In this document: piece after piece, positions 18,901-53,100 of the stretch | How positions within the stretch are numbered: the stretch's first letter is position 1 | Layout: the number at the start of each line of letters is the position of its first letter | Source of the DNA: Bolinopsis microptera | Taxonomy: Eukaryota > Ctenophora > Tentaculata > Lobata > Bolinopsidae | Length of the DNA stretch: 60,000 nucleotides | Direction of reading: 5' to 3' | NCBI RefSeq assembly: GCF_026151205.1 | Contig: NC_087076.1 | Location: 13,069,675-13,129,674, forward strand | Position numbers and translations under genes: made by a program | Notes under the pieces: model-generated | Told to the model about the DNA's origin: nothing | Databases searched by the model: none | Seen by the model: the letters and a program-made list of their open reading frames with translations, nothing else

Positions 18901-21900
18901 CGACAGTATCAACGTGAAGCGTGGCTTCTGGAGGAACGTCAGACCCATCGCTGAAGCCCTCCTGGTGTCTCCTACACGATTTAAGGAGACGCTACGACAC
19001 CACGGTAGCACTCTCAACCTGAAGCGTGCCAAGACCTTGGCGGCAGCAGTCCTCAACACCACTTCCGGACAACAGAAGCTGAAGACCTTGAACATAGATG
19101 GGGTGGCATTGGTACCCTTGGCGGGATACTGATTTATCTGTAAACTCATTCTGTAATTTAACATTGTAATTGATTTAACACAGTAATTGATGTACATTAT
19201 AACTATTACTTCAATTTATTCATGAAATATCGTCTATTCATTCTTAACCAATTGTAAATCTGAAAATCTGAAAATTTATTCATGAAATATCGTCTATTCA
19301 TTCTTAATCAATTGTAAATCTGAAAATTAACATATTAAAAGTCTGAAATTGACGGGAGAATTTTTGTCTACAAACTTCTCACTGTTTACTTGTTTAGCAA
19401 TCGTGTCTGGGTGTTTAGAGACGGTTCTACAACGGTTCTTAACCGGTTACTTATCTAGGTTGATAAGTAGATTTATAAATCTGTTTTCTATAGGCGGTTC
19501 TTAACCGGTTAAGAGCCGGTTCTTATCCGGTTCTTAACCGGTTCTTAAACGGCTCTAAGTTTATTAGTAGATTTATAAATCTGTTTTCTATAGGCGGTTC
19601 TTAACCGGTTCTTAAGCGGTCCTTAGACGGTTCTTAACCGGTTCTTAAACGGCTCTAAGTTGGTTCTTAGGTTGTTTAAATGCAGTTTTAGAGGCGGTTC
19701 TTCAACGGTTCTTAAGCGGTTCTTAAGCGGTCCTTAGACGGTTCTTAAGCGGCCGCTCATCGGCTCTTAACCGGCTCTAAACCGGCTCTTAACCGGTTCT
19801 TAGCCGGTTCTTAGCCGGTTCTTAAACGGCTCTTAAGCGGTTCTTAAACGACTCTTAAACGGCTCTTAACCGGCTCTTAAGCGGTGGTCGCTGTTTGCCC
19901 TATTAGCCGGATAAGTTAAGAATTAAGTTAGCATTTCCACTTCTATTATGAAAGAAATCTCACATCTGCTCTGTTTCTAGAGTCACTCAGAGTTAAACAC
20001 ATGATTGTAACAATATTACTGGAATTACTCCTTTTCTCGGTCAAGAAACAGTGGTAGTGCGCGCCACACGTGGTAGTTGATGAGGTCGGTAACTACAAAG
20101 TGCCACATTGTGCGTGTGCGACTCAGATACGCGATGACTATCCCTTTGTTGTCAGCTGGAGTCAACATTTAGCACTCTTCACACCAATCTGTGATTTATT
20201 ACAGTATTGTAAAAGCGCCTACTTCCCAACTTGTGTCAAACACTGGACACATGTTTCCCAATTTCCATCAAGTCCAAACTCCTGATTTCTCAACATAAAC
20301 CTCCTGCTTCCTCAATAGTGCTCCTGCTTCCTCAATAGTGTCCAATAAACCTCAATAGTGTCCAACACACCTCAATAGTGTCCAACACACCTCAATAGTG
20401 TCCAACAAACCTCAATAGTGTCCAACACACCTCAATAGTGTCCAACACACCTCAATAGTGTCCAACACACCTCAATAGTGTCCAATAAACCTCAATAGTG
20501 TCCAACACACCTCAATAGTGTCCAACACACCCCAATAGTGTCCAACACACCTCAATAGTGTCCAACAAACCTCAATAGTGTCCAACAAACCTCAATAGTG
20601 TCCAACAAACCTCAATAGTGTCCAACACACCTCAATAGTGTCCAACAAACCTCAATAGTGTCCAACACACCTCAATAGTGTCCAACAAACCTCAATAGTG
20701 TCCAACACACCTCAATAGTGTCCAACACACCTCAATAGTGTCCAACACACCTCAATAGTGTCCAATAAACCTCAATAGTGTCCAACAAACCTCAATAGTG
20801 TCCAACACACCTCAATAGTGTCCAACACACCTCAATAGTGTCCAACACACCTCAATAGTGTCCAACAAACCTCAATAGTGTCCAATACACCTCAATAGTG
20901 TCCAACACACCTCAATAGTGTCCAACAAACCTCAATAGTGTCCAACAAACCTCAATAGTGTCCAACAAACCTCAATAGTGTCCAACAAACCTCAATAGTG
21001 TCCAACAAACCTCAATAGTGTCCAACAAACCTCAATAGTTTCCAACACACCTCAATAGTGTCCAACACACCTCAATAGTGTCCAACACACCTCAATAGTG
21101 TCCAACACACCTCAATAGTGTTCAACACACCTCAATAGTGTCCAACACACCTCAATAGTGTCCAACACAACACAATAGTGTCCAATAAACCTCAATAGTG
21201 TCCAACACACCTTAATAGTGTCCAACACACCTCAATAGTGTCCAATACACCTCAATAGTGTCCAACAAACCTCAATAGTGTCCAATAAACCTCAATAGTG
21301 TCCAACAAACCTCAATAGTGTCCAATAAACCTCAATAGTGTCCAATACACCTCAATAGTGTCCAACAAACCTCAATAGTGTCCAACACACCTCAATAGTG
21401 TCCAACACACCTCAATAGTGTCCAACACAACACAATAGTGTCCAACACACCTCAATAGTGTCCAACACACCTCAATAGTGTCCAACACACCTCAATAGTG
21501 TCCAACAAACCTCAATAGTGTCCAATAAACCTCAATAGTGTCCAATAAACCTCAATAGTGTCCAACAAACCTCAATAGTGTCCAATAAACCTCAATAGTG
21601 TCCAACACACCTCAATAGTGTCCAACAAACCTCAATAGTGTCCAATACACCTCAATAGTGTCCAACACACCTCAATAGTGTCCAACAAACCTCAATAGTG
21701 TCCAACAAACCTCAATAGTGTCCAACAAACCTCAATAGTGTGCAACAAACCTCAATAGTGTCCAACAAACCTTAATAGTGTCCAACAAACCTCAATAGTG
21801 TCCAACACACCTCAATAGTGTCCAACACACCTCAATAGTGTCCAACAAACCTCAATAGTGTTCAAAACACCTCAATAGTGTCCAACAAACGTCAATAGTG

Positions 21901-24900
21901 TCCAACACACCTCAATAGTGTCCAACAAACCTCAATAGTGTCCAACACACCTCAATAGTGTCCAACACACCTCAATAGTGTCCAACACACCTCAATAGTG
22001 TCCAATAAACCTCAATAGTGTCCAACAAACCTCAATAGTGTCCAACACACCTCAATAGTGTCCAACACACCTCAATAGTGTCCAACACACCTCAATAGTG
22101 TCCAACAAACCTCAATAGTGTCCAATACACCTCAATAGTGTCCAACACACCTCAATAGTGTCCAACAAACCTCAATAGTGTCCAACAAACCTCAATAGTG
22201 TCCAACAAACCTCAATAGTGTCCAACAAACCTCAATAGTGTCCAACAAACCTCAATAGTGTCCAACAAACCTCAATAGTGTCCAACACACCTCAATAGTG
22301 TCCAACAAACCTCAATAGTGTCCAATAAACCTCAATAGTGTCCAATAAACCTCAATAGTGTCCAACAAACCTCAATAGTGTCCAATAAACCTCAATAGTG
22401 TCCAACACACCTCAATAGTGTCCAACAAACCTCAATAGTGTCCAATACACCTCAATAGTGTCCAACACACCTCAATAGTGTCCAACAAACCTCAATAGTG
22501 TCCAACAAACCTCAATAGTGTCCAACAAACCTCAATAGTGTGCAACAAACCTCAATAGTGTCCAACAAACCTTAATAGTGTCCAACAAACCTCAATAGTG
22601 TCCAACACACCTCAATAGTGTCCAACACACCTCAATAGTGTCCAACAAACCTCAATAGTGTTCAAAACACCTCAATAGTGTCCAACAAACGTCAATAGTG
22701 TCCAACACACCTCAATAGTGTCCAACACACCTCAATAGTGTCCAACACACCTCAATAGTGTCCAACACAACACAATAGTGTCCAATAAACCTCAATAGTG
22801 TCCAACACACCTCAATAGTGTTCAACACACCTCAATAGTGTCCAATACACCTCAATAGTGTCCAACAAACCTCAATAGTGTCCAACACACCTCAATAGTG
22901 TCCAACACACCTCAATAGTGTCCAACACACCTCAATAGTGTCCAACACACCTCAATAGTGTCCAACACACCTCAATAGTGTCCAACACACCTCAATAGTG
23001 TCCAACACACCTCAATAGTGTCCAACACACCTCAATAGTGTCCAACACACCTCAATAGTGTCCAACACACCTCAATAGTGTTCAACACACCTCAATAGTG
23101 TCCAACACACCTCAATAGTGTCCAACACAACACAATAGTGTCCAATAAACCTCAATAGTGTCCAACACACCTTAATAGTGTCCAACACACCTCAATAGTG
23201 TCCAATACACCTCAATAGTGTCCAACAAACCTCAATAGTGTCCAATAAACCTCAATAGTGTCCAACAAACCTCAATAGTGTCCAATAAACCTCAATAGTG
23301 TCCAATACACCTCAATAGTGTCCAACAAACCTCAATAGTGTCCAACACACCTCAATAGTGTCCAACACAACACAATAGTGTCCAACACACCTCAATAGTG
23401 TCCAACACACCTCAATAGTGTCCAACACACCTCAATAGTGTCCAACAAACCTCAATAGTGTCCAACACACCTCAATAGTGTCCAACACACCTCAATAGTG
23501 TCCAACAAACCTCAATAGTGTCCAATAAACCTCAATAGTGTCCAATAAACCTCAATAGTGTCCAACAAACCTCAATAGTGTCCAATAAACCTCAATAGTG
23601 TCCAACACACCTCAATAGTGTCCAACAAACCTCAATAGTGTCCAATACACCTCAATAGTGTCCAACACACCTCAATAGTGTCCAACAAACCTCAATAGTG
23701 TCCAACAAACCTCAATAGTGTCCAACAAACCTCAATAGTGTCCAACAAACCTCAATAGTGTCCAACAAACCTTAATAGTGTCCAACAAACCTCAATAGTG
23801 TCCAACACACCTCAATAGTGTCCAACACACCTCAATAGTGTCCAACAAACCTCAATAGTGTCCAAAACACCTCAATAGTGTCCAACAAACGTCAATAGTG
23901 TCCAACACACCTCAATAGTGTCCAACACACCTCAATAGTGTCCAACACACCTCAATAGTGTCCAACACACCTCAATAGTGTCCAACACACCTCAATAGTG
24001 TCCAACACACCTCAATAGTGTTCAACACACCTCAATAGTGTTCAACACACCTCAATAGTGTCCAATACACCTCAATAGTGTTCAACACACCTCAATAGTG
24101 TCCAATACACCTCAATAGTGTCCAACAAACCTCAATAGTGTCCAACACACCTCAATAGTGTCCAACACACCTCAATAGTGTCCAACACACCTCAATAGTG
24201 TCCAACACACCTCAATAGTGTCCAACACACCTCAATAGTGTCCAACACACCTCAATAGTGTCCAACAAACCTCAATAGTGTCCAATAAACCTCAATAGTG
24301 TCCAATAAACCTCAATAGTGTCCAACAAACCTCAATAGTGTCCAATAAACCTCAATAGTGTCCAACACACCTCAATAGTGTCCAACACACCTCAATAGTG
24401 TCCAACACACCTCAATAGTGTCCAACAAACCTCAATAGTGTCCAACACACCTCAATAGTGTCCAACAAACCTCAATAGTGTCCAACACACCTCAATAGTG
24501 TTCAACACACCTCAATAGTGTCCAACAAACCTCAATAGTGTCCAATAAACCTCAATAACCCCACAACTTGTTCCACCAGGACAGAGACGAGGAATTCAGA
24601 GAAAACCACCTCGGTCTACTCAAGAGGTTCTATAAGGTGTTCGAGAGTGTCTACAAGTATATCTGCGATATCAACAGGTTCATTTACAATGCTGTCAACT
24701 GTATAGTAAACCTGGGGGAAGCCAAGGGGTATTTTGGGAAATACTTTAATGGGTTTTGGAAATTCCCCATAATAAAGTCCCACATAATATCACAAATACC
24801 CCTTGGCTTCCCCCCTAAGCCATAGTACTATATTAACAGGTAACGAGGGAGCTTGAAGTCGTAACTACCTCTCACGCGCTCTTATTTAGGATCAAAATCT

Positions 24901-27900
24901 TGATTTAACCTTTTCTTTTTCGTATTTTTTCCCGATCCATGACTCAAAGTGCCGAAGGCGCAAAAGAGTCAAGGACAAGGGTTAGCGATCGAGGTTTTTT
25001 TTGTATATGGTAGCTTTGCGACCGTGCGTGCGTGCGTGCGTGCGTGCCCTCGCCCCCAGTCTAGTTATCGCCCACGTGTCTGCCTGCGCAAAGTTATTTT
25101 GCGCGATCATCTGAATTAAACAATTGTTGGCGCGCAGTGCTGAAATGTTCAAGTACATTGTTAATTTTACCATGTACGCATCCCGATAGGGACTAATTGA
25201 TAGCATTGTATTATTATTTTGAGTTAGTATTACTATTTTGCACAGATCCGTGTCAGGTTGCATAAACAATAAACATATAGTTACATAGAAATATACACGA
25301 TTTTCAAATTCAATATAGAATTATATCAACTGGGCGGCGCTCGGCCTGTCACTCCGCCATATCTGCATGCTTATAAACAGCAAAGACTGGGGTCCCCAGG
25401 TGGTACTGGTATGGAATATGATAGAATACTTCATCCCGGATCGGGAAATTTAGCGGCCATCCACAAAAGAAAAGCGGCCGCATTTCTTGTTTGTGTGGTT
25501 AGGTGGTTGTTTAATGTTTGGGTGGTATCAATAATGCTGTGTGTCAGGTTTATGGAGGAGTTGGAAGAGGGTATCTACATACAACAGTCACTGGAGACTG
25601 TCTTCATGGATACTGAAGGCAAACAGGTACCAACTGTGGGAAAAGGTTGCCAACTTTATAATAATATGTAGGGGTACTGTTAGCCAATCCAACAAAATAC
25701 CCAAACGTTCTCATCTCAAGATTTAACTAGTTAACAACCTCTTTTCGCACAACCTTCTCCAATAATACCGCAGTTGTTATGTGAGAGCCTGTACCTGTAC
25801 GGGGTAATGTTGCACGTGATCGACATTAAATACAACGGCACTGTCAGAGAAAGGATCCTGGTCGCTTACCACAGGTTCATTTTCACTTAACATTCGTTTT
25901 GTAAACATGTGTGAAAATTAGTGATATATAACGAATATCAAAATATTTTTTACATTTATAATAATTGATAACTGTATGTCAACCCCACATTAACCAGTAA
26001 TCCTCTTTAGGGGTCGTTCACATATTACGTAATCAATATTTTGGCAATTTTTCCCCCCCCCCCCCCTCCCCTTCGTAATCAACCGTAATCAAGACCGAAC
26101 CCCCCCCCTATATAACGTAATCAAGGTTTGACCCCCCCCCCCCCCCCCGTAATCAACCGTAAGCATTTGAAACCCCCCCCCCCTCTGCTGATTAGGTAAT
26201 ATGTGAACGACCCCTTAGTGAACTTGAGGTCGGAGAAGCTGTAAGAAATGGCTGAATTTACCGTATTTAGTTTCAGCATTCCTCCTTGTTTACTTACTTG
26301 TCTCAAGATATAGTAGTCCCGTAGTTAAACTGTGCTACACTGTACTCTTATCGAGGTACATAGATAAGATAATAGTTTATAAGCTATTATCTTATATATG
26401 AACCTCGATAAGAGGTACATAGAATTAGATAGGAGTATGTTTTATTTTTGATATAAAGTAAATTGCAATATTTTTCACATCTAAGAGAAATAAAACTCAA
26501 TATTCAATGCAACTTTTTAAACTTATGGTCATTCAACAAAATTTACTCGTGATCGTATCACACCTTACCCCTGCGTTACCCAGTGCAGTTTCATACAAGT
26601 TAGCATTATTGGGGTCCCTGCTGGGGTTGAGGGTTCAGCTGATCGTTTTCCAAAATCAACAAATGGTTCACCGTTCTGCTGGGGTTCAGCTGATCGTTTT
26701 CCAAAATCAACAAATGGTTCACCGTTCTGCTGGGGTTCAGCTGATCGTTTTCCAAAATCAACAAATGGTTCACCGTTCTGCTGGGGTTCAGCTGATCGTT
26801 TTCCAAAATCAACAAATGGTTCACCGTTCTGCTGGGGTTCAGCTGATCGTTTTCCGAAATCAACAAATGGTTCACCGTTCTGCTGGGGTTCAGCTGATCG
26901 TTTTCCAAAATCAAGAAATGGTTTACCGTTCTGCTGGGGTTCAGCTGATCGTTTTCCAAAATCAACAAATGGTTCACCGTTCTGCTGGGGTTCAGCTGAT
27001 CGTTTTCCAAAATCAACAAATGGTTCACCGTTCTGCTGGGGTTCAGCTGATCGTTTTCCAAAATCAACAAATGGTTCACCGTTCTGTTGGGGTTCAGCTG
27101 ATCGTCTTATTGGAGGCTGACACTGAGTCAGAGCGATCAGTCCTAGCACTAGTAGAAAACAGAATACTTTCGTCATTGCTGCGGGTCTGGTGCTTTTTTT
27201 AAAGGCTAAAACAATAGGATACGAATATGGCAATACTTAAATAGTTCAACTTTTTTACAAATATCACTCGATATCAGATAAAAATAAGATTTAAAAAAAA
27301 ATGAAATGCGGAGTTACGTGAGACTGAAACCTGGTAAAAGGAACAGAACTGAAAGTTAAAGCCCTGATAAAGCAAATACAACCGTGTTCTAAGGAGAAAT
27401 CTTAATCAGTCGTATCAGAAGTCGTTCAAAAGGTAGATCAAAATAGTCTATTCTATTATATTGTTAAAGATAAAAAGGAAAAAAGCAACCAGCTGCTAAA
27501 ATTTAACGCTGAAAAAAACCCGGAAATCGGCATATTTAGGTGTCTAAAAAACCATGTTAATAGAGATCTAAAATTTGTTGAACACCAGACTCTAACTTTG
27601 TTCACGATAATTATCGTAAACCAAAGAAGGGAGCGGGTGCCTTAAATTGATACAGTCTGGGCGAAGATTCCGCCATATTTTTCCCGGTCAAAAATTTTAC
27701 CAGTCATAAAAAAACCCGCCGACTCAGATTATGGGGTTCCAAGGGGGTGGTGATCATCATATTTTACCTGAAGTCTCATATGTGCTAGAGAAGACTTTTG
27801 AAGCAGTGGATGGAGGGCTGTAACTTTATTGGCGGTTGCTACCATAATTTCGTTATAAAAATCACAATTTGGTTATAGAAATCAGATTTCAGGGTGGACC

Positions 27901-28723
27901 GTGATTCTCACTTTTCTTGCCCATGAAGTGAGTAAACTGTGCCACTATTTCATGGTCCACGGTGGATTGATTACTGGAGCAGTTGAAGATGCAAAGCCAA
28001 GACGTTCCCCAATACCAAGCGGTGGGCAGGAAATTAAGCTCCCGCGGCTGACCTTCAGAGCAGTAGCCCCATTAGCGGACAAAATGAAAGTCTTGTTAAG
28101 ACAACAATACAACTTCGAATTTGACGGTCAGCAGCAGGGGGATATCAATAATGATAATGGAGGGGACATTAGCGATAATGAGAATGAGAATACGCTTTAA
28201 TGAAGATTTGACTTATTATTGCTATAGATTTATTTTCCTTTAAATACTAGACGTGTCTTTTTTTCTATTTCTGAGTAATATCAGTAACTGTAAATTGAAA
28301 TAACTTTTTTAACAAGTAACAAAAACAGAAATTTCGGTTGAAAATTTGTTGACCTCTGAAAAAAAACTTGAAAGGTCGGCCACCGGTAAATACATGACCG
28401 GGATAATTTGGCGGGTTTTGGGAAATTCCGCCATATTTTTCCCGGTTATTAATTTTCCCAGTCATAAATTAACCCGCTATAATATTCCCGAGTAAGGTAG
28501 GTAAACTGTGCTACACTACAGTCTGTTTCTATGATCTGTGATAAATTTAAATTAAATTAAAATTTGTCACTGTTCAAGTTAAATAGGGCCGTCCAAAAAA
28601 GAATTTCACTGTAGTTTGCGTGCATCAAGATACCTTACTAGCTTGCATCAAGATATAACTTATAGTATGGTAGGTAAACTGTGCTACACTTCAGTCTGTT
28701 ACTATGATCTGTGATAAGGTTTG

Positions 28724-28755
<32 letters not shown>

Positions 28756-31700
28756 TAATCAAGACCCAACCACCCTCCTATATTACGTAATCAAGATTAG
28801 ACACCCCCCCCCCCCCCCCCCCCCCCGTAATCAAGACCCAACCCCCCTCCTATATTACGTAATCAAGATTAGACACCCCCCCCCCCCCCCCGTTAATGGT
28901 TAGGCACAGAGCTGCAAACCTGACCTACGTCGAAGCCCTGACTAAATTTTGTCAGTTCCCAAGCATGAAGACACTACCCGCTGTAAGTGTAAGAGCTGCT
29001 TTGAAAGAGCTCTAGGTTCTTAAACGTATCTAGATATTGTGTAATTTTGTTGTTGATTTAATTTTATTACTGATTTAATTTTATAACTGATTTAATTTAT
29101 TACTATCTATTACATGTTCATGTTAAGTCATTTATTTATTAAAAGCTATCACAACGGATTAATGAATGAAATAATCGCAAAGCACTTACTAAACGAAAAT
29201 TGGTTTAAAAAACGAACATTTTGATTACCGTACATAATTAACGAAAATTGTCCAATCGGTATTTCGAAAATCGGTAAGAAATTAAAATTTTGATCACGCA
29301 ATCAACGACCAAACCCCCCCCCCCCCCCCCCCCCCCCCGTAATCAACCGTAAGCATTTGAAACCCCCCCACCCCCTGCTGATTACGTAATATGTGAACGA
29401 CCCCTTAGTGAACTTGAGGTCGGAGAAGCTGTAAGAAATGGCTTCAACATTCCTCCTTGTTTCAACATTCCTCCTTGTTTACTTACTTGTCTCAAGATAT
29501 ATATTAGTCCCGTAGTTAAACTGTGCTACACTGTACTCTTATCGAGGTACATAGATAAGATAATAGTTTATAAGCTATTATCTTATCTATGAACCTCGAT
29601 AAGAGGTACATAGAATTAGATAGGAGTATGTTTTATTTTTGATATAAAGTAAATTGCAATATTTTTCACATCTAAGAGAAATAAAACTCAATATTCAATG
29701 CAACTTTTTAAACTTATGGTCATTCAACGAAATTTACTCGTGATCGTATCACACCTTACCCCTGCGTTACCCAGTGCAGTTTCATACATTCATGATCGTT
29801 TTCCAAAATCAACAAATGCTTCACCGTTCTGCTGGGGTTCAGCTGATCGTTTTCCAAAATCAACAAATGCTTCACCGTTCTGCTGGGGTTCAGCTGATCG
29901 TTTTCCAAAATCAACAAATGCTTCACCGTTCTGCTGGGGTTCAGCTGATCGTTTTCCAAAATCAACAAATGCTTCACCGTTCATCCCCCCCCCCCCCCCC
30001 CCCCCGTAATCAACCGTAAGCATTTGGAAACCCCCCCCCCCCCCCTCGGCTGATTACGTAATATGTGAACGACCCCTTAGATATAACGCAAACAAGGCAG
30101 CAGTAGACTCTCACATTAACCAGTAACCCTCTCTAGATATAACGCAAACAAGGCAGCAGTAGACTCTCACATTAACCAGTAACCCTCTCTAGATATAACG
30201 CAAACAAGGCAGCAGTAGACTCTCACATTAACCAGTAACCCTCTCTAGATATAACGCAAACAAGGCAGCAGTAGACTCTCACATTAACCAGTAACCCTCT
30301 CTAGATATAACGCAAACAAGGCAGCAGTAGACTCTCACATTAACCAGTCACCCTCTTTAGATATAACGCAAACAAGGCAGCAGTAGACTCTCACATTAAC
30401 CAGTAACCCTCTTTAGATATAACGCAAACAAGGCAGCAGTAGACTCTCACATTAACCAGTAACCCTCTCTAGATATAACGCAAACAAGGCAGCAGTAGAC
30501 TCTCACATTAACCAGTAACCCTCTTTAGATATAACGCAAACAAGGCAGCAGTAGACTCTCACATTAACCAGTAACCCTCTCTAGATATAACGCAAACAAG
30601 GCAGCAGTAGACTCTCACATTAACCAGTAACCCTCTCTAGATATAACGCAAACAAGGCAGCAGTAGACTCTCACATAGATGATGTGTGTAAGTTGTTACG
30701 GAGCACAGGGGTAGGAGGAGGAGGAGCTTCACGGAGACCTGCTAACTACCCTATAAGTTACTTCGGCAGGGTTCCTATCAGACAGGACTTTGTTAACATG
30801 GCTATAGGACGACTCAGGTTGGTCACTGTCTTGGTTCCCTTTGTCTTTACTTATGAGCTTATGGTCTCTGAGTTTAATTTTGGGTTTTTGTCACAAGTAA
30901 TGCTCAGATGTTTAATTAATTGAAGTAAATTTACCATATAGATTTGGTAATGGTATTATCCGACATCAATACTAGATGTACACTGTACATTGTACACTGT
31001 GCATTGTACATTGTACATTACATATCCGACCTTTTGTAATCTAGCTAACAAACTGTCCCCAGATCAGATGATGTGTATAACCAGATGTCGAACTACCCTC
31101 TCCCGGAACACAGATCAGTGGCCCTGTCCACCCAGGCCAGCATGCTCTACATCATCCTCTACTTCGCTCCGGACATCCTCCACAACCAGCAGGCAGTCAT
31201 GAGGGAGATTGTAGATAAACATTTCCCTGATAACTGGGTTCTGGATGTTTACATGGGTCAGTACTGGGCTATATAAACCCTGAGGCTATATAAACCCTGA
31301 TGGAATATAAACCCTGAGGCTATATAAACCCTGAGGCTATATAAACAATCTAACAGGATCCTGTCACTAACCACTAATAACTAATTCCACTACTAAGAGG
31401 GAATATAATAAACAATCTACAGGGTGATTCAAAAGCTTGGCGAGGATGTTCTTTTTGGATACTTCTCTTTTAATTTGAAACACCCTGTAACGGTATCCTG
31501 CCACTAACCAGTACCACCCTCTGTTTGAACGAGAATTTTCTTCTTTAAATAAAAGCATATTTGGGTATACATTCAAAATCAGGAAATAAAACCATACCTT
31601 AATTAATACATATTTATATTCAGGCCTTACAGTAAACCTTGTTCTGGAATGGGAGGGATTTCGTGCCGCACGCACCGCACTCAACAACACGTTCGACAAC

Positions 31701-33644: not shown

Positions 33645-33744
33645 NNNNNNNNNNNNNNNNNNNNNNNNNNNNNNNNNNNNNNNNNNNNNNNNNNNNNNNN
33701 NNNNNNNNNNNNNNNNNNNNNNNNNNNNNNNNNNNNNNNNNNNN
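33645..33744. other. Assembly gap (100 N)
   Basis: Exactly 100 N, the convention for a gap of unknown size. It hides the 3' end of WASHC5 and the 3' exon of the TMEM272-like gene. Confidence 0.98.
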
Positions 33745-50100: not shown

Positions 50101-53100
50101 GGCTTACCTGACAAGTACATTAGAATTATGAAGGCGTTCTTCACTCACACAGTTAGTGCTGTTAGGGTCAATGGAGAGGTAACAGGTTGGTTTGATGTTA
50201 ACTCGGGTACTGGGCAAGGTGATATACATTATACAGGGACCACCAGTCTTCAACTTTTGTTTGAATTTTTCAGCATACCTTATGGAACTGAACAAGGTCA
50301 TTAGCAAGGCCAGGGGGCTTTATTACAGCTGCCAGCCCCCGGGGTAGAAGAGAAACATCTCTTGGACACTGATTACGCTGATGACATGGCCATGTTAGAT
50401 AACTCAAAAGAGGGGCTGCAGGAAACCACTAACCTTCTCTGCAAATACAGTGCCTATGCGGGTCTGAAGACTAATGCTGGCAAAACACAGAGCATGGTTG
50501 TCAGCAAAAGTGCATCGCAGAGGCCGTATTCTAAAGACGACACTATGGACATCAATATGGAAGGTATTCCAATACAGCAGGTCAGCAATTTCACTTACTT
50601 GGGTGCAATCATCAGTGCGAATGGAGAAATTGACTAAGAACTATCAGCTCGAATTCAAAAGGCCTCTGGGGCATTCTATCAGCTTAGTAGTATATGGTAC
50701 AGTCGCAACATCAAGACTCCGACTAAAATCAGGATTTACAAAGCGGCTGTTCTCACTATACTGCTTTATGGAAGTGAGGTATGGAATACCACACAGACGC
50801 AGATGAAAAGATTTGAGGTGTTCCATCATAGATGTCTGAGGAGAATCCTGAAAATCAAATGGTTTTATCATGTATCTAATGCTGATGTACTTAAGCGGGC
50901 TAACATCGCCCCTGTTGATACTTTCGTACGAGCAGCTAGACTCCGACATGGTTTGGCCATGTGGTGAGGATGCCAGAAGAAAGAATACCCAACTATCTTC
51001 TGCACTGGATCCCAAAGCATGGTAAAAGGTCAAGAGGTAGACCTCGGAAAAACTGGTTGTCATGTGTCCGGGAGGATGCAGCAATCTTCACAGGTGTCGA
51101 TAACATCACGATAGAAGATGCAGAACAACAAGCTACAGACAGGGTTCACTGGAGAGGTCTAATACACCGGAGAAAAGAGTTACTATGTTGTATGTGGTGC
51201 AGGCCACTCCAACGACTAGGAGGAGACCTTTTCAAGTACAAGTAAGTACCCATTCGAAACATGTTTACAGATCATTATCAATCTTATGAAAATGTTTAAA
51301 TTTTAAAACCTTCAACATGAACACGGTCCCGACACGATACATCTGTACATACTACACAATACACATCATTAAAAAATAATATTTTAATCGAGTTGGTAAT
51401 GTTACAGTTTTCCACTGTTAATTTGGATATAGATATTCGATTGACTCGGAGCATTCAGTCGACTGTCCTCTCTGTTATATGGTGTGTAGCGTGTACTATG
51501 CCATACTGCCCGGTCACTTGTTCACTATCAACCAAATTCTCATATCATATTGATATACATTGAACGTCATTATAATCAATAATGCCCATTGCTAGGGATA
51601 TTTTGAGGAATTTAATGGGTGAAAATAAATGTTGTACTAGTACAATAAATAGAGATAAAGGTGGACACTGGACAGTAATAGTGGGGTGCAGACAATTCGT
51701 TATCAAATTCTCAGTTCAAAGTTTTAAAATTTCATATTTCGAATGGCATAGAATGGAGACAAATGGCATAAAATTCATCAAATGGCATAGAAATTTCATG
51801 GCATAAATGGAAATTTTGTTTGGCCAATTCTCCATTATGCCATTTATGCCATTGGTACCCCCCCACTGGAGACACACGGGGAAGAGAAAGAGACACTTAC
51901 CGTAGCTACTTGCATGAGATATTGGAGAGGAAGAGAAAGAGAAACACTTACCGTGGCTACTTGCATGAGATACTGGAGAGGAAGAGAAAGAGAAAGAGAA
52001 AGAGAAACACTTACCGTAGCTACTTGCATGAGATACTGGAGAGGAAGAGAAAGAGAAACACTTACCGTAGCTACTTGCAGGAGATACTGGAGAGGAAGAG
52101 AAAGAGAAACAATTACCGTGGCTACTTGCATGAGATACTGGAGAGGAAGAGAAAGAGAAAGAGAAACACTTACCGTGGCTACTTGCATGAGATACTGGAG
52201 AGGAAGAGAAAGAGAAACACTTACCGTGGCTAGGGGGGGGTCCAAGGGGAACTTTGGGGAGTTTTGGGGAACTTTTTTTTGGGGAACTTCAGGAAACCTG
52301 GGGGACTTTCCCAAAGTTCCCCAAAAAATTATCAATGAAACAAATAATTTTGGGGAATTTTGGGGAACTTTTTTTGGGGAACTTCAGAAAGTTCCCCAAA
52401 ATTCCCCAAAGTTCCCCAAAGTTCCCCAAAAAAATTATAATGCCAAACAAATTATCATGCTGCAAGTATCAACAAGTAAGTTAAGATTATACCTTATAAT
52501 AACATACATGTTAACATTAATGGGTATTAATGTATATTAGAGAAATTTTGAATAATTTTGAATAATTTTGAATAATTTTAAATAATTTATAATAATTTTG
52601 GGGAATTTTGGGGAACTTTGGGGAGTTTTGGGGAACTTATTTTTGGGGAACTTCAGAAATCTTGGGGGACTTTCCCAAAGTTCCCCAAAGTTCCCCTTGG
52701 ACCCCCCCCTGGCTACTTGCATGAGATACTGGAGAGGAAGAGAAAGAGAAAGAGAAACACTTACCGTGGCTACTTGCATGAGATACTGGAGAGGAAGAGA
52801 AAGAGAAAGAAGAAACACTTACCGTGGCTACTTGCATGAGATACTGGCACAGCAGATCCGACTGATCGTCTCCGGATTTTCCTTGCTGTATACCCCACTC
52901 AATATCTGATAATACCTGAGACAGATTTGTTTGTAAGTTTTTGCATGATTTTGATTTATGTCCAAATGCTAGGTTTAATTTTAATTTGCTAACATATTAT
53001 AAGTATTGAATATTGATATGCGGGAGACGAAAATACGAACTATACATTCGTATTTGCAGAGTAGAGGAGAGGTTGTAAAGAATAAAGGGAGCAATTAAAC

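Follow-up and report, generated by a model that had tools for sequence, protein, structure and literature searches.

Tandem repeats across splice junctions are already known, from potato RdRp, from human genes and from IFI6. According to the excerpts of PMC4974935, the potato RdRp gene gained an intron by one tandem duplication, with the activation of a cryptic donor; the same excerpts cite multi-copy 24-bp AGGT repeats in fission yeasts, with introns across them. The human IFI6 (6-16) gene carries a minisatellite that provides several splice donors (Turri 1995, as stated in the excerpted part of PMC4526556). For human duplicated genes, internal tandem repeats at exon-intron boundaries and 27 intron modifications are described in the excerpts of PMC2812944. 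Splicing of UBC uses dual-specific sites arranged in tandem, and 792 human introns lie within tandem repeats, as given in the excerpts of PMC10809524.

The array described here lies in WASHC5 of the ctenophore Bolinopsis microptera, at the junction of intron 5 and exon 6, within a stretch of 60,000 nucleotides that was analysed as a whole (the window). As in potato RdRp, the copied segment spans an intron end and an exon start, so that branch site, pyrimidine tract and AG travel together. In contrast to the single duplication in potato, eleven copies are present, and in place of an activated cryptic donor and a new intron there is no good donor and an expected skip to the last acceptor (potato data from the excerpts of PMC4974935). 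IFI6 shares with WASHC5 an exon-edge minisatellite with splice sites within the repeat units; its sites are alternatively used donors, whereas WASHC5 shows an acceptor array, and the donor arrays of FANCI, dynein and myosin genes presented below stand nearer to IFI6. The human boundary repeats also lie at exon-intron boundaries, but belong to gene families from segmental duplication and are kept or spliced out, and no high-copy acceptor array appears in the excerpts of PMC2812944. UBC resembles WASHC5 in having splice sites once per tandem unit, with identical sites competing; it differs in that AGGT serves there as both donor and acceptor, giving a ladder of ubiquitin numbers (excerpts of PMC10809524), and the 56-bp unit of WASHC5 lacks AGGT. 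The excerpts of PMC3296678 and PMC4039745 contain no closer parallel. No high-copy acceptor array was found in the open-licence literature searched.

Gene identity and anatomy of the WASHC5 array

A search of the genome with the PF10266 profile gave nine exon matches at E <= 0.001, all at this locus. A conceptual join of exon 5, exon 6 (from the last array copy) and exon 7 aligns along its whole length with PF10266 positions 113-272 (E = 1.3e-77); by this homology the gene is WASHC5, encoding strumpellin. Exon 5 (numbering as in the sequence-only reading; 25774..25874, plus strand) ends in CACAG|GTTCAT, phase 2, and exon 7 (31063..31256, plus strand) is also matched by PF10266. A PDB search with one WASHC5 exon returned no match, and no tRNA genes were found in the window. 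A further array, of 4.2 kb and 211 copies of a 20-bp unit (20330-24557), lies just before another WASHC5 exon; it was rejected as a junction-crossing array, as it ends 22 nt short of the exon start at 24580 without crossing it.

Tandem Repeats Finder (TRF), applied to the window, places the array at 30078-30676, with a period of 56, 10.7 copies and a 98% match. The window contains exactly 11 copies of the 36-mer that opens exon 6, ATATAACGCAAACAAGGCAGCAGTAGACTCTCACAT, placed at 30081+56k with k = 0 to 10, a regularity that chance does not explain; in copies 2-11 it directly follows the 20-nt intron end TTAACCAGTAACCCTCTYTAG. The sequence-only reading of eleven tandem copies of a 56-bp unit over an acceptor is thus borne out, as is its statement that the unit joins the end of intron 5 to the start of exon 6 in WASHC5 with the last copy coding, which is confirmed by the PF10266 match. 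With the boundary set by profile continuity, the unit is read as 20 intron plus 36 exon bases. The intron part contains a branch-like TTAAC, pyrimidines and TAG, with one unit reading GTCACC. Holding both sides of what the homology indicates to be a genuine exon-intron boundary, the repeat can be classed as a splice-junction minisatellite.

Copy 1 (30081..30116, plus strand) lacks the TTAACCAGTAACC intron end; its exon-start 36-mer follows a transposon-like insert end and TTAG. Copies 2-10, with their intron ends (30117..30620, plus strand), supply nine complete decoy acceptors, with AG at 30135-30136 + 56k. The frame-keeping acceptor is provided by the intron end at 30621..30640 (plus strand; AG 30639-30640), which leads into copy 11 and the remainder of coding exon 6 (30641..30817, plus strand), 177 nt long, a multiple of 3, with the donor CAG|GTTGGT. 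The proposal that ten upstream acceptors compete with the real one therefore holds for nine complete decoys, while copy 1 is altered and without the 20-nt intron end.

Only copy 11 continues the strumpellin frame. From upstream acceptors 1-4 and 6-10, the frame runs for 15 codons and is closed by TAA at codon 16; at copy 5 (30305) the stop is delayed to codon 28, because TAA reads TCA there. An early stop behind every upstream acceptor had been correctly anticipated, but its position, given as within 14 codons, is codon 16 in nine cases and codon 28 in one. The exon measures 177 nt from the last acceptor versus 233-737 from the upstream ones.

Among the ten upstream copies, variant cells number 0 of 360 in the exon parts and 4 of 200 in the intron parts (p = 0.016). 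The cells in this test lack independence, and the differences could stem from two or three events. The result is a hint only, and would fit a degree of constraint or homogenisation of the exon copies better than pure neutrality. When a 683-base array query was compared with the genome contigs (264.65 Mb, E <= 0.001, in a search that skips very common words), the sole match was the array itself.

Origin of the array and the insert in intron 5

The history of the junction is preserved in part within intron 5. About 110 nt past exon 5, the segment CACATTAACCAGTAATCCTCTTTA (25986..26009, plus strand) corresponds by homology to the intronic portion of the unit, from which it departs at one or two bases, and represents the stranded ancestral end of the intron. 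Together with the G now at 30080, it gives an old intron 5 of about 136 nt that formerly ended in ...CACATTAACCAGTAATCCTCTTTAG. The word CACAT is found both in this stranded end and at bases 32-36 of exon 6, and one repeat unit is the exact segment between the intronic and the exonic CACAT. Consequently, the stranded intron end places the duplication between these two words, and the first duplication fits a 5-base microhomology (CACAT/CACAT) when the two ends are compared. Later slippage or unequal exchange would have raised the number to eleven copies.

The segment that separates the stranded end from the array is an insert at 26010..30076. GGGGTCGTTCACATATTACGTAATC directly follows CACATTAACCAGTAATCCTCTTTA, and its inverted form closes the insert at 30076, after which come TTA, G and copy 1; TTA stands at 26007-26009 and again at 30077-30079. 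Inside the insert there is a complete 205-bp element (26010-26214), together with a partial second copy of it; the inverted ends of the element are identical over 27 bp. At least 103 relatives of the element occur in the genome among the matches listed, with 40 of 1,282 first-look candidates scored. Of 20 relatives fetched with their flanks, 13 have TTA/TAA on both sides (identical flanks in two of these 13), 2 have another identical 3-mer and 5 have none. The ends of the insert thus combine a 3-bp TTA/TAA duplication with long terminal inverted repeats, the signature of PIF/Harbinger-type MITEs, and make the insert a putative member of that group. As judged from these ends, the TTAG of the first acceptor was most likely the insertion site of an inverted-repeat element that duplicates TTA/TAA, which accounts for the missing intron end of copy 1. 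Furthermore, the insert has only TTAG and exon on its right side, which is most simply explained if another complete unit, with branch site, pyrimidines and AG, was already present at insertion. On this layout, the array probably comprised at least two units by the time of the insertion, and the duplication would be the earlier event.

The insert also holds a nested repeat-peptide gene (26565-27236, minus strand), composed of nine 51-bp units in an amidation/cleavage style and thus antisense to WASHC5 within intron 5; it is accompanied by a truncated copy at 29790-29982. Dispersed relatives of this region are found on many contigs, at least 98 among the matches listed, with 40 of 54 candidates scored. 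In the twelve relatives fetched with the start of the region, the element is not upstream of the common flank, so that exchange between element copies may have brought the peptide gene into the insert. Two element loci 94 kb apart on one contig (L006 and L007 on C4) carry the same element and the same flanks in opposite orientation, which suggests an inverted duplication or a haplotype leftover.

Junction arrays elsewhere in the genome

The second splice-junction array noted in the window, in FANCI, is confirmed in both gene (PF14678, E = 7.3e-10) and array (51880..52847, minus strand), with the correction that it sits on a donor and not on an acceptor. Its units of 51, 57 and 63 bp comprise the exon end CAGTATCTCATGCAAGTAGCCACG|GTAAGTG and a pyrimidine tract. 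A 477-bp inverted-repeat element with ends GGGGGGGGTCCAAGGGGAACTTTGGGG (52233-52709), bordered by TAGCCA on both sides, lies inside one of the units; the WASHC5 and FANCI arrays thus both carry a transposon-like insert within a unit.

The wider survey covered seven families: dynein DHC_N2, AAA_8, Dynein_C, myosin head, TCP1, adaptin and SNF2. It listed 192 + 135 = 327 exon hits, 150 of them in dynein heavy chains, toward which the sample is therefore weighted; 188 of the 192 were entered and 6 long hits of the 135 dropped. The 317 hits fetched, with about 330-350 bases per side, form 153 loci and 230,599 bases, on which TRF was run. Junctions were called on 314 hits (231 donors and 292 acceptors) without annotation, by a home-made score with differing cut-offs for donors and acceptors, in one genome and a few families. 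On these calls, arrays reaching at least five bases into the exon cross 6 of 231 donors and 0 of 292 acceptors (p = 0.007). The last three loci (L188-L190), which stand outside the 314-hit counts, show no array at a junction.

The six donor-crossing arrays, five in dynein genes and one in a myosin gene, have units of 30 bp (L028), 40 bp (L050), 18 bp (L059), 32 bp (L087), 49 bp (L102) and 50 bp (L114). The program had counted seven; L113 was dropped by eye because it lies at a dynein C-terminus ending in an in-frame TAA, and L103 was likewise set aside as an array at a stop codon. The same difference is apparent among arrays close to the junctions: within 10 nt of a called donor, 7 of 21 (L113 included) run into the exon, while within 10 nt of a called acceptor none of 10 enters it, all stopping 1 to 8 bases short. 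Under a stricter array filter, donors show 6 crossing arrays (7 with L113) versus 13 with an edge 5-49 bases into the intron, and acceptors 0 versus 16; the contrast, computed with 6, gives p = 0.02 (two-sided). The recurrent process suspected from the window is therefore supported by six further junction-crossing arrays among the 314 sampled exon hits, all on donors, and the WASHC5 acceptor array is the exception to a donor-only pattern in the sample. Such an asymmetry would be expected if splice sites tend to win when they are transcribed first, which would be harmless at donors and harmful at acceptors.

Including WASHC5 and FANCI, the unit lengths of the eight crossing arrays (56, 51, 30, 40, 18, 32, 49 and 50) are multiples of 3 in 3 of 8 cases, about the chance level, and the extra copies hence do not look selected or kept in frame as coding inserts. 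Microhomology is uneven in the other arrays, with 4 shared edge letters in L102, 2 in L114 and 0 in L087, where an indel spoils the register of the comparison. The 40-bp myosin donor array, covered by the overlapping loci L050 and L186, contains 22 donor motifs (9 + 14 - 1), with CCTTC at either edge, exonic and intronic. The matches to dynein heavy chain at C3:8952495 and C1:6101794 have open frames of 3357 and 3703 codons, in contrast to the multi-exon paralogues, and are possible retrocopies.

Splice-site choice and its meaning

Taken with the layout of the locus, these data favour a reading in which a near-neutral minisatellite happens to straddle a 3' splice site, the last, exon-attached acceptor is used and nonsense-mediated decay (NMD) removes the errors; we consider this the probable explanation. 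The spliceosome would use the last unit, which offers the sole open frame and the shortest exon, as exon definition favours. Mis-spliced RNA would meet its premature stop and be lost to NMD, the decoy acceptors would be passengers, and the same mutational process would give rise to the arrays at other splice junctions. At donors, arrays would be tolerated, since the exon-attached site is both the first to be transcribed and the correct one. What counts against this reading is that the nine decoys are nearly letter-for-letter as good over the 20 intron and 36 exon bases, so that a choice by sequence alone would fail most times. A dynein locus (L076) bears on this point: in L076:1-356, an array of 26-bp units that contain, in most cases, a branch-like CTAYTAAT and, frequently, CACAG ends one base before the exon, placing 8 CACAG upstream of the homology-called acceptor, with decoys that carry no exon sequence. 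If that acceptor call is right, the spliceosome would skip upstream AGs elsewhere too.

The decoys could instead act as a poison switch, in which regulated unproductive splicing sets the share of productive WASHC5 mRNA by the win rate of the last acceptor. An early stop behind every upstream acceptor of a conserved gene and exon copies without differences would agree with such regulation. It is nevertheless unlikely, given that the sequence contains no regulatory pointer and that like arrays occur at unrelated dynein and myosin donors.

It is very unlikely that the array creates a mini-exon by an intron gain of the potato RdRp type, in which an upstream copy ending in CCA|GTAACC is spliced in as a 42-nt, 14-codon cassette and splicing resumes later. 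The cassette is frame-neutral, joining copy 1 to copy 11 introduces no stop, and a tandem duplication of the same anatomy made an intron in potato (excerpts of PMC4974935). However, the candidate cryptic donor in the copied exon piece, as scored from the sequence, reaches only -0.8 bits, whereas the donors scored from WASHC5, FANCI and the arrays range from 5.0 to 11.1; it has no -1G and no +5G, and a cassette from neighbouring copies leaves an intron of 14 nt. Its bottom rank (zero percentile) is partly by construction, since the donor matrix was built on the 231 sampled donors, pre-filtered by a related score; the missing -1G and +5G are not. The cassette, which the sequence-only reading had derived from this donor, was thus rejected as the main reading on the donor score.

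That WASHC5 is decaying in this lineage, with the array tolerated in a dispensable gene, is highly improbable. PF10266 positions 773-1084 have no match in the genome, and a 4-kb insert lies within intron 5; against this, those exons that do match keep open frames and are conserved, one of them scoring 422 bits, and the missing part would start at an assembly gap of 100 N (33645..33744). The WASHC5 coding sequence breaks off there, so that the assessment extends only as far as this gap; matches can also escape the search. Most improbable of all is an assembly artefact or a collapsed or expanded repeat: tandem arrays are difficult to assemble and the 100-N gap lies 3 kb downstream, but the units starting at 30305, 30361 and 30473 are distinct from the others, the array spans just 0.6 kb and like arrays are found on other contigs.

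The near-neutral minisatellite may form part of a broader picture, which we put forward tentatively and with more doubt than confidence. The genome would grow introns steadily from their edges, as junction duplications turn into minisatellites of intact splice sites. Donor arrays would survive, at about 2-3% of sampled donors, where the first donor transcribed is right, and acceptor arrays would be purged, where the first acceptor transcribed is wrong. WASHC5 would have escaped, with a position rule and not a sequence rule picking the last of eleven identical exon starts, perhaps not until the 4-kb insert had changed the first acceptor and made the intron longer.

How one among identical 3' splice sites comes to be used, whether by first-come, scanning, intron definition or exon definition, has been approached mainly through engineered duplications. 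WASHC5, a conserved gene, offers a natural case, in which nine complete near-identical units precede the correct one; together with the donor arrays elsewhere, it could make the selection rule readable from ordinary RNA-seq. The donor/acceptor asymmetry, if genome-wide, would measure the selection against misplaced 3' splice sites and would reveal intron growth by tandem duplication as an ongoing process in a probably early-branching animal lineage.
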